A DNA stretch of 64,000 bases from Candidatus Poribacteria bacterium. GTDB taxonomy: Bacteria; Poribacteria; WGA-4E; PCPOR2b. Shown here piece by piece: positions 1,529 to 4,755 of the stretch. The position numbers and the translations under genes were made by a program. Under the pieces are notes generated by a model. That model saw only the letters and a program-made list of their open reading frames with translations, made no database searches and had not been told where the DNA came from. The first letter of the stretch is position 1; each line of letters begins with the position of its first letter. Location: assembly GCA_022822005.1 (NCBI GenBank), contig JAJECO010000053.1:124001-188000 (forward strand). Reading direction: 5' to 3'.

Positions 1529-2797
1529 TTAGATCGTTAAGACAATCTCGATTTCGTTTTTTCCTACCTGTAGATTGACCCGAGCAAACAATAACTGATC
1601 ACCTAACCACGTTATCTCCTGTGCATTTGAGGAGGCCAACGTGAGTCCAGCGTGATTTCCCCAGACAGCCAATCCGTACGGCATCGCTTTTGTGGATTCC
1701 AAGGTGAACTGCATTCGCAACCGGCTGCGCGAACGAGAAGGACGAAACTGTTCAATTTGTGGGATGTTCACTTCTGCACCGTTGCGTGAACTAACTGGCG
1801 GCGAGATGTAGTTTGTTACCTGAATCGGTTCTATCTTGCCTTCTTCAAAAACCAACTGACATTCGGTATCGTAATAGGAGAAGATTGATTTGTCCGAATT
1901 GGTTGACGCTCCCGCCTCACCTTCTAACTTGGGATTATTGAGCAGAAAAGTTGGCTGTGTCTGCTCACCGGCTTCTTGGCAGGCACCAACAAGGGCGGGC
2001 AGCGATAGGATCTGTGTATTGGGTGCCTCGCATACGTAAGCCAAGTATGCATCCAACTGATCGAGCTGCTCCTGTGTCAACGATGCGACCTCCACAGGGT
2101 CAATTCGCTGGATATAAGCCAACAACTGATTCCACCCCGCGTTTGCTGCATAACAATCGAATGCGTACTGCATTGCCCCGTTTGAGACTTGGCACTGAAG
2201 ATCGGTGCCTTCCGTTTCCTCGGATTCACGGGTTGCTTGGGTAGGAAGAATGGAGGTCTGGGGGAGACCAACAATTCGGCTTGTGGAAGTGCCGCAAAAA
2301 TTGTGCTTGTCTGCCGACGGAAAGAAGCAACCAAACGGACACCCATCATCTCCTCTATCTTCCCATTTGTACCCCCACAGTCCAGTAAATCCCACCTCTG
2401 CTAAAGCGTAGAGTAGAACGTGATTCTTTTTTACACCTCCCGCAACAGTTGGGTCCGCCCATTCAATTGCCTTTTGAACCCTCTCTCTTTCGGACGAGAT
2501 GTAACCGGGCAGCTTTTCACGCATCGTCACGATATGCTCTGCTGACCGGTTCAGGTCGTCAGAGTCCGCTTCCGATCCCCAAATCGGCGTAATATTAACC
2601 ATCAGCGCGAGTTCGTCGCCGTGGGATGTGTGCCATTCGGTTAAATCTGCGGCGAAAGATCGTGCAGCTGTCGCCCCAACTCCCCACGTAACAGGAATCT
2701 CGTGTTTATGGGCAACTTCGGCGAGGCGACGCATCCCCCGTCTCACCGCATTTCGATCCCCAGCAGTCAGGGGGCTAACAAGAGAATAAGTCAACAT
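1529..2797 (-). CDS. Putative polysaccharide-deacetylase-like fold protein
   Basis: About 422 residues from the ATG at 2797. A TTG 63 nt further upstream would add 21 residues but looks like leader sequence. The first half resembles a glycoside hydrolase/deacetylase barrel: MLTYSLVSPLTAGDR, then ruler-like phrases such as EIPVTWGVGATAA, HGDELALMVNI and a later region containing AEVGFTGLWGYKWEDRGDDG. The second half looks like an appended beta-rich domain ending in VNLQVGKNEIEIVLTI. I cannot place the catalytic Asp/His set with confidence, so activity is uncertain. No signal peptide is seen. It precedes the SnoaL-like gene on the same strand. Confidence 0.5.
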   Translation of the reverse strand: MLTYSLVSPLTAGDRNAVRRGMRRLAEVAHKHEIPVTWGVGATAARSFAADLTEWHTSHGDELALMVNITPIWGSEADSDDLNRSAEHIVTMREKLPGYISSERERVQKAIEWADPTVAGGVKKNHVLLYALAEVGFTGLWGYKWEDRGDDGCPFGCFFPSADKHNFCGTSTSRIVGLPQTSILPTQATRESEETEGTDLQCQVSNGAMQYAFDCYAANAGWNQLLAYIQRIDPVEVASLTQEQLDQLDAYLAYVCEAPNTQILSLPALVGACQEAGEQTQPTFLLNNPKLEGEAGASTNSDKSIFSYYDTECQLVFEEGKIEPIQVTNYISPPVSSRNGAEVNIPQIEQFRPSRSRSRLRMQFTLESTKAMPYGLAVWGNHAGLTLASSNAQEITWLGDQLLFARVNLQVGKNEIEIVLTI

Positions 2798-2867
2798 AAC
2801 AAACCAAATATAGTGAATTATAGAAATAAGTGGACATTTACCAATAGCTCCGCCCTTCAAGAAGGTT

Positions 2868-3288: not shown

Positions 3289-4755
3289 TCACGGTTCATC
3301 AATCTCTCGATGTAAGGCGTTGTGGATTTCAACCGTAGCAAGTGTATCCATCTCACAATATGCTCTCAAGCTGTTAATCATATTGTTTCTTGCTTCTTCA
3401 TTTGCGGTATTTATCATCTCATCCCAGACAGCTTGAGCATCATTACCCTCTTGGATGTCCAAATCCTCGTAAGAAAGAGAAGGCACCAACACAGGGAGGA
3501 CATCCTTAAGAGAATTAGAACCGTAGAATTCCGGATGTCTATAGTGGTTTCTGAATATCACCAACTGGTCCCAAAGCCTAGAAATAATTGATTGAAGTGC
3601 TTCAGAATGTTCGGGGAAAAATTCAGCCAAGTCCTTAAGTATCCCACATTCAAAACGAGCGTTGTAAACAACCACCGAACCAACATCAGAAATATGGCTA
3701 AGCAAGGATTCCACCAGAGGCAATCTGGGATCGGTTGCATAAGTGTGTAGGTATTCGTGGTGGGTGAGCGAACCATCGGATTGCAGTATATGACAACTGT
3801 ACTGGAATGGAAATTGTTGGTATGCACTCAGCCCCTCAAACCTCGGAATCGCAGGATTAAGGGTTTCAAAATCAAAGAAGTGGATTGGATATTCTAACTT
3901 CGATAATAGATGTCTGATCGCTTCATTGTCAATCTCCGGTTGATTGTTGCGAATCATGTTGACGTAATCACGTTCGCTTGGATTCAATGGGAAATCGCTA
4001 GGAAGATCGCGAATACTAAGGTTATCCTTTCTGATCAGCTTATTTTTTTTATCCCAACTAAGTCGTGGAATGGTGAAAATGGAGCAGCATTCAGGAACGT
4101 CCCTCCAACAATAGTCCTTAAACGGACAGCGATGGGGCTTCTCACACTGCTCCCCAATCAGAACCTCTGGTTCAACGTCTTCGGCAAGTATTGCTTCGAA
4201 TGTTTCTATATTGTTGGGTACATCGTCCATCAGTCGATCAACTTTATCTGTTACGTCCTCAATAGTAAACAGATCGCAAAGATCTGGATAAACACACTCT
4301 CGATTTATATGCTTCACTTTCGTTCTAGAGATGGTTACCCCTTGTTCAGTCAAGACGTACTTTTGGAAAGCGAGGTCAGCTAGATGCTCTTTTTTGACAT
4401 CAGCTGATGCCTCAACTTCAATGATTTTCCACGAGTTTGAGTCTCTCTGAAGAATGTCACATCGTACCCACCAAGTGTCATTAAAAATAAAAGAGGCGTT
4501 AAAAATACACGAAATGTCGCTGTTTATAGCTTCTTGGGTTTGTTCTGCCGCTTCTCGAGGATCTGTGGTATCAATCAGCATGCCCTCTGGAAACCGACAC
4601 CGAGCCCGTCTCCTTACTTCTCTACTCTGATCGAGAAGCCGCCGCTGTGATCTGGAAGTAGGTGTCGCTCTCCCCGGATGGTTCTGTCCATACCAGAGGC
4701 GTCTGTGACATTGTAAACCGTGCAAGTAATTTGATCTTCTAAGGTAATTTGTCAT
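3289..4755 (-). CDS. DUF2779-type nuclease: PD-(D/E)XK-like domain plus DEDD exonuclease-like domain
   Basis: A 488-residue protein. The N-terminal half resembles a Cas4/RecB-like module: Cys16 near the start, Asp100, an IIEVEAS segment (113-117) and a Cys cluster at 204, 210 and 216, matching the four-cysteine iron-sulfur arrangement of Cas4/AddB-type nucleases. The C-terminal half has an RNase H-like 3'-5' exonuclease pattern: FFDFET (Asp295, Glu297), an internal Asp, and YCEMD near the end, matching a DEDDy YxxxD motif. Known DUF2779 proteins combine these two domains. The expected catalytic Lys of the first domain is Glu115 (GAG) here. The gene is AT-rich compared with its neighbours, stands alone and lies between two direct repeats, which together suggest acquisition. 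Confidence 0.8.
   Translation of the reverse strand: MTNYLRRSNYLHGLQCHRRLWYGQNHPGRATPTSRSQRRLLDQSREVRRRARCRFPEGMLIDTTDPREAAEQTQEAINSDISCIFNASFIFNDTWWVRCDILQRDSNSWKIIEVEASADVKKEHLADLAFQKYVLTEQGVTISRTKVKHINRECVYPDLCDLFTIEDVTDKVDRLMDDVPNNIETFEAILAEDVEPEVLIGEQCEKPHRCPFKDYCWRDVPECCSIFTIPRLSWDKKNKLIRKDNLSIRDLPSDFPLNPSERDYVNMIRNNQPEIDNEAIRHLLSKLEYPIHFFDFETLNPAIPRFEGLSAYQQFPFQYSCHILQSDGSLTHHEYLHTYATDPRLPLVESLLSHISDVGSVVVYNARFECGILKDLAEFFPEHSEALQSIISRLWDQLVIFRNHYRHPEFYGSNSLKDVLPVLVPSLSYEDLDIQEGNDAQAVWDEMINTANEEARNNMINSLRAYCEMDTLATVEIHNALHREIDEP

Follow-up and report, generated by a model that had tools for sequence, protein, structure and literature searches.

The available text of PMC3985635 lists DUF2779 (PF11074) as family F.17 within the RNase H-like superfamily, counts it among the presumed 3′–5′ exonucleases, and mentions the DUF83 part that it contains. 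Its two-domain architecture is already known. In the literature searched, which represented two papers by parts of their text, we found no biochemical study of DUF2779; a table entry in PMC7373297 records a Mycoplasma bovis transposon mutant in the DUF2779 gene Mbov_0804. The Poribacteria protein described here (P0001) shares with the family the domain order, the exonuclease residues, four Cys residues, D100, and E113, but it carries Glu in place of K115 and Arg in place of K7. With Cas4 (DUF83, PF01930; 7mi5_A and 8d3l_J), it shares the fold of residues 1–229, the four-Cys set, and the D…E-x core; unlike Cas4, it is fused to an exonuclease, the catalytic Lys is gone, and its genome has no Cas1 match. 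The inactivated RecB-like nuclease domain of RecC has the PD-(D/E)XK fold without the catalytic means, belongs to a machine with another nuclease, and forms a hoop for ssDNA, according to the part of PMC1185551 that treats it. If silent, as is most likely, the N-terminal half of P0001 would be comparable to this domain, although RecC has no metal site left, whereas P0001 retains both metal-binding acids and the four Cys residues. BamHI, which is an active restriction enzyme, is not known to have a four-Cys set. It has the D…E-x-E motif (PMC4081073, in the portion available) that is also found in P0001.

The window, which is the whole 64,000-nucleotide stretch that we analysed, encodes P0001 (488 aa) on the minus strand, from position 4755 down to 3289, with an ATG start and no internal stops. 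The initial annotation had placed a DUF2779 nuclease at 3289–4755 with no mention of the strand. The PF11074 match covers residues 292–415 (E = 3.3e-43) and scores 147.4 bits, far above the gathering cut-off of 23.3. The match to Cas4 (PF01930, residues 97–217, E = 6.8e-5) lies just over its cut-off (23.5 versus 22.7 bits). The score of 64.9 bits for the UU173 family (NF045869) is below the NCBIfam cut-off of 225, which leaves P0001 outside that family. No other DUF2779 match was obtained in the 6.0 Mb genome of P0001.

The AlphaFold model has a mean pLDDT of 96.6. We divided it into an N-terminal Cas4-like PD-(D/E)XK domain (residues 1–226, window 4078–4755, minus strand) and a C-terminal DUF2779/RNase H-like exonuclease domain (residues 280–488, window 3292–3918, minus strand), both boundaries being our choice. 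For the first domain, the Cas4 matches are joined by a fold match of residues 1–229 to the Cas4–Cas1 fusion 7mi5_A (Z = 14.5, rmsd 4.1 over 195 residues). Residues 288–488 match the exonuclease domains of B-family polymerases, with Z values of 13.5–15.4 among the matches listed. Polymerase alpha gives the best of these, and the archaeal KOD and Tgo polymerases score almost equally. The exonuclease domain of polymerase alpha is inactive. By sequence, the search for a solved homologue gave two hits, at E = 0.63 and 0.7, and none that reached 0.001.

The nuclease motif IIEVEAS (residues 111–117, window 4405–4425, minus strand) was examined in an alignment of 220 DUF2779 rows including P0001, 219 of which are distinct, with one identical pair. 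We left out 12 duplicates or fragments (L001, L022, L024, L025–L029, L037, L073, L109, and L139). The partial L108, the rediscovered L240–L255 and L257, six plasmid copies fetched as regions, and partial, distant, or unlisted matches from the score-based genome searches also stand outside the set. The alignment sets the Lys of the E-x-K motif exactly at residue 115, where P0001 has Glu. The replacement of the catalytic Lys is therefore as the initial annotation described it, and so is the codon: GAG (4411–4413) is one base from the AAG found in both same-genus orthologues (L002 and L003, 74% and 70% identical to P0001). Three further genomes of the genus gave no DUF2779 match. Residue 115 is Lys in 209 rows, Arg in 8, His in 1, and Glu in 2 (P0001 and L307). 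In the first alignment of 99 rows, the counts were 88 Lys, 8 Arg, 1 His, 1 Glu, and 1 gap, and all ten non-Lys residues belonged to Poribacteria; 157 rows gave 146, 8, 1, 1, and 1, respectively. The nine proteins with Arg or His form one Poribacteria clade. Of the Cas4-type catalytic D…E-x-K, P0001 has D100 and E113, with Glu at residue 115. D100, the metal-binding Asp of the PD-(D/E)XK fold (4456–4458, minus strand), is Asp in 219 of the 220 rows. The nuclease half of P0001 also retains the conserved helix residues D127 to Q131 (4363–4377, minus strand). P0001 thus keeps D100, E113, D127, and Q131, whereas the Arg/His clade does not keep all four.

It had also been suggested that the E-V-E variants might form a clade. 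They do not: P0001 and L307 are two unrelated singletons whose near relatives have Lys (L002 and L306, respectively), and the change at residue 115 in P0001 sits on a terminal branch. The initial annotation named a common occurrence of E-V-E in active members as an argument against its reading; in this alignment, E-x-E is rare (2/220 rows). On these sequences, E-x-E is a repeated, isolated change and not the mark of a clade. L307 is encoded together with L306 in genome G581, and these paralogues read E-I-E and E-I-K, respectively, which represents a second independent Lys-to-Glu change. Position 131 is Thr in the two paralogues and in their nearest relatives alike.

Residue 7 of P0001 is Arg (AGA, window 4735–4737, minus strand). 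This residue is Lys in all 206 rows with an intact D-ExK motif. We called a motif broken at any departure from D100, E113, or K115, which applied to 14 of the 220 rows: P0001, the nine members of the Arg/His clade, L039, L290, L307, and L320. Lys7 was lost in 12 of these 14 rows as against none of the 206 intact ones; the two that retain it are L039 (D100N) and L307 (E-x-E). On the FastTree tree, the fewest changes needed were six for D-ExK breakage and four for K7, so that breakage occurred repeatedly and independently. All four independent pairs agree, four being too few for the test to reach 0.05, and we claim no significance for it. We also compared columns conserved to 90% or more across 83 rows from outside Poribacteria. 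Of the six Poribacteria rows that do not belong to the Arg/His clade, P0001 alone departs there at residues 7 and 115 (K7R and K115E), and it has no other departure to itself. The Arg/His clade has also lost D127 (9/9), Q131 (4/9), and E113 (2/9). In a tree built without the motif columns, and without L020, L021, and L108, P0001 grouped with L002 (support 98), and the nine-genome clade stood apart (100). These well-supported branches force two separate losses among Poribacteria. The co-change of Lys7 and the nine-genome clade are additions to what the initial annotation contained. Lys7 is not known as an active-site residue of these nucleases. In L290 and L320, which retain Lys115, the four Cys, and the exonuclease residues, E113 is replaced by Leu or Ala and K7 by Arg or Glu, and Q131 is lost.

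The four Cys residues are putative ligands of an Fe–S cluster, a feature of Cas4-like nucleases. C16 (4708–4710, Cys in 219/220 rows) and C204, C210, and C216 (4108–4146), all on the minus strand, are present in P0001, as noted earlier from its sequence, and the set is complete in all 14 broken-motif proteins. In the exonuclease half, motif I, D295-F-E297 (3865–3873), was found in 220/220 rows. E369 (3649–3651), which we take to be the motif II acid in our assignment of the DEDDy positions, is Glu in 220/220 rows, and the conserved acid D396 (3568–3570) is Asp in 219. Motif III, Y466-C-x-x-D470 (3346–3360; these features also lie on the minus strand), was present in 219 rows, the remaining row ending earlier. 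The residues of the DFE, FE, and YCxxD motifs are all found in P0001, and each is invariant in 219 or 220 of the 220 rows. The DEDD-like residues of the initial annotation are hence in place (D295, E297, E369, D396, Y466, and D470), but the second-motif acid is Glu, not Asp, throughout the alignment. The full set of six occurs in 218/220 rows; L143 stops short of motif III, and L265 has Asn at 396. All 14 broken-motif proteins have it complete, a count biased towards intact exonucleases since 80 loci, the best 80 of 544 relatives, were found via the exonuclease motifs; the remaining loci came from genome searches and were chosen by score. We infer that the C-terminal half is a 3′–5′ exonuclease, as presumed for the family.

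We compared the evolutionary rates of the two halves on a fixed topology, with the motif columns removed. The branch of P0001 measured 0.266 in the N-terminal half and 0.095 in the C-terminal half. The N/C ratio was 2.85 (95% 1.50–6.11, 100 bootstraps) for P0001, 2.50 (1.49–4.66) for the stem of the Arg/His clade, and 1.56 (1.28–2.00) inside it, as compared with 0.78 (0.61–0.99) for the Lys-retaining Poribacteria and 1.06 (0.82–1.33) for the outgroups, on a topology weakly supported at several forks within Poribacteria. For the sister L002 it was 1.32 (0.75–2.47), and the P0001/L002 quotient exceeded 1 in 97/100 bootstraps. The nuclease half thus evolves faster than the exonuclease half on the P0001 branch and in the Arg/His clade, unlike in the Lys-retaining Poribacteria. 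Tajima tests of P0001 against L002 in the N-terminal half were not significant with L003, L004, or L005 as the outgroup (36 versus 22, 29 versus 19, and 29 versus 18 changes; χ² = 3.38, 2.08, and 2.57, respectively). Of the columns on which four or more of five Lys-retaining Poribacteria agree, P0001 had derived changes at 24/226 in the N-terminal half and 4/209 in the C-terminal half. Sites changed in both P0001 and the Arg/His clade numbered 8 in the N-terminal half, against 2.87 expected (hypergeometric P = 0.003, a value that ignores rate differences between sites), and 0 in the C-terminal half, against 0.15 expected. The dN/dS values were below 0.45 in both halves for every computable pair, two C-terminal values being saturated.

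With slightly more confidence than doubt, we propose that the N-terminal half of P0001 has fallen catalytically silent and now serves to hold DNA for the 3′–5′ exonuclease of the C-terminal half. The ancestor would have been a two-headed nuclease, combining a Cas4-like four-Cys PD-(D/E)XK head with a DEDDy-type 3′–5′ exonuclease. The first head would have lost catalysis in the P0001 lineage through Lys115→Glu and Lys7→Arg, while keeping its fold, the four Cys, and the two metal-binding acids; the retention of these suggests a binding role. It could then act as a holder of a DNA end or branch that feeds the active exonuclease. The initial annotation had likewise suggested a binding module beside an active exonuclease half, a reading that our results support in part. 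The loss of Lys115 alone does not prove inactivity, because Glu replaces this Lys in BamHI (PMC4081073, as far as its available text goes). We read the half as silent because K7 changed as well, because the N-terminal half is relaxed, and because a like event occurred in a clade that is eroding E113, D127, and Q131. Against this reading, K7R is a conservative change, Lys7 is retained in the E-x-E protein L307 and the D100N protein L039, and all four of D100, E113, D127, and Q131 are kept in P0001, for which the evidence comes from one MAG. The non-significant Tajima tests, the N/C ratio of the sister L002, and the top fold match of the exonuclease half to polymerase alpha also count against it.

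The same four residues, and the Lys7 of the isolated L307, would suit an E-V-E site that is active, with Glu115 standing in for Lys as in BamHI and perhaps with an altered use of metal. In the available part of PMC8845596, the E113K mutant of BamHI cleaves poorly and yet binds DNA, which adds to the case for a working Glu at this position. We nevertheless consider an active site unlikely, given the concurrent change of K7, the acceleration of the N-terminal half, and its changes at sites shared with the Arg/His clade. Moreover, BamHI and the Cas4 branch are no more than distant relatives. A Lys that has migrated was also considered, since K122 is found in P0001 and 8/9 clade members as compared with 4/146 Lys115 rows, and K118 in 9/9 clade members. 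P0001 has no K118, however, K122 occurs in 17/220 rows of the wider set, and the clade has lost further motif residues, as listed above; substitution by either Lys is very unlikely. Least probable of all is a base-call or assembly error that turned AAG into GAG. A single MAG and a one-base distance to the codon of L002 and L003 would allow it, but the change at K7 would need a separate explanation, and the acceleration was measured with both codons excluded.

The gene may instead be decaying, the nuclease half first and the whole gene after, with no positive role for the silent half. The distribution of DUF2779 keeps this explanation alive, because many relatives lack the gene and remnants of it occur. 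When matches of every length were counted, with fragments, DUF2779 was found in 51/200, 108/395, and 55/386 genomes (the third set overlaps the first search), which makes the family widespread across the genome sets searched. In the phylum, it was matched in only 16 of 84 genomes, the genome of P0001 and one fragment included. Of the 38 genomes from the genus that contains the Arg/His clade, 10 carry the gene in full. We inspected 20 regions from 20 of the 28 copy-less genomes: 19 showed no trace, and one had a 35-aa C-terminal remnant (L224 in G030). G033, from another genus of the same order, retains only short N- and C-terminal pieces (L182). A malate/lactate dehydrogenase gene was present in all 20 copy-less regions, and dnaK lay within the region in 15. 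We also read eight loci of the Lys-less clade (G015, G026, G037, G040, G042, G047, G060, and G064). The dehydrogenase gene adjoins the copy in each of them, and dnaK flanks it opposite in all but G042, which starts near a contig end. The Lys-retaining copy of G070 is flanked by the same dehydrogenase family. Set against decay are the open frames, dN/dS values well below 1 in both halves, and the four Cys and six exonuclease residues retained in all 10 Lys-less Poribacteria proteins, which make it improbable in our view.

Returning to the silent, DNA-holding half, a broader version is conceivable, though we hold it with more doubt than belief: in DUF2779 proteins, the Cas4-like nuclease may repeatedly become a module that reads DNA for the fused 3′–5′ trimming exonuclease without cutting it, and Lys7 may be one more part of the nuclease site, dispensable once the D-ExK core is broken. 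If true, the turning of a nuclease domain to another use would be a replicated event here. Natural lineages with one head stripped of catalytic residues and an intact second head would let the two activities be separated, and Lys7 offers a new residue for testing.

Four genes were scanned near P0001, namely a phosphodiesterase-like gene, a SnoaL-like gene, the gene of a 443-aa protein, and a trypsin-TPR gene that also matches protease models of PADLOC. These four neighbours do not support a defence island. A phage origin of this copy is not supported either: the phage collection gave no match, and neither did a single-sequence viral scan; an alignment-based viral scan for DUF2779 returned four distant loci. 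The trimmer–integrase system in the available text of PMC10284694 served as a comparison case for CRISPR adaptation, and such a link was not supported for P0001, with no Cas1 match in its genome (estimated 97.78% complete). In the six plasmid regions read, out of 30 matching records, the surroundings of the DUF2779 copies include ATPase, helicase, and WYL genes and one for phospholipase D; for L183, L184, L187, and L188, the nearby genes are those of ATPase, helicase, WYL, PD-(D/E)XK, and phospholipase D proteins. These plasmid neighbourhoods may indicate a role in defence. The 443-aa neighbour of P0001 (window 1532–2860, minus strand) has no Pfam match at E = 0.001, and a homologue of it also adjoins the DUF2779 gene in G003 (L169).
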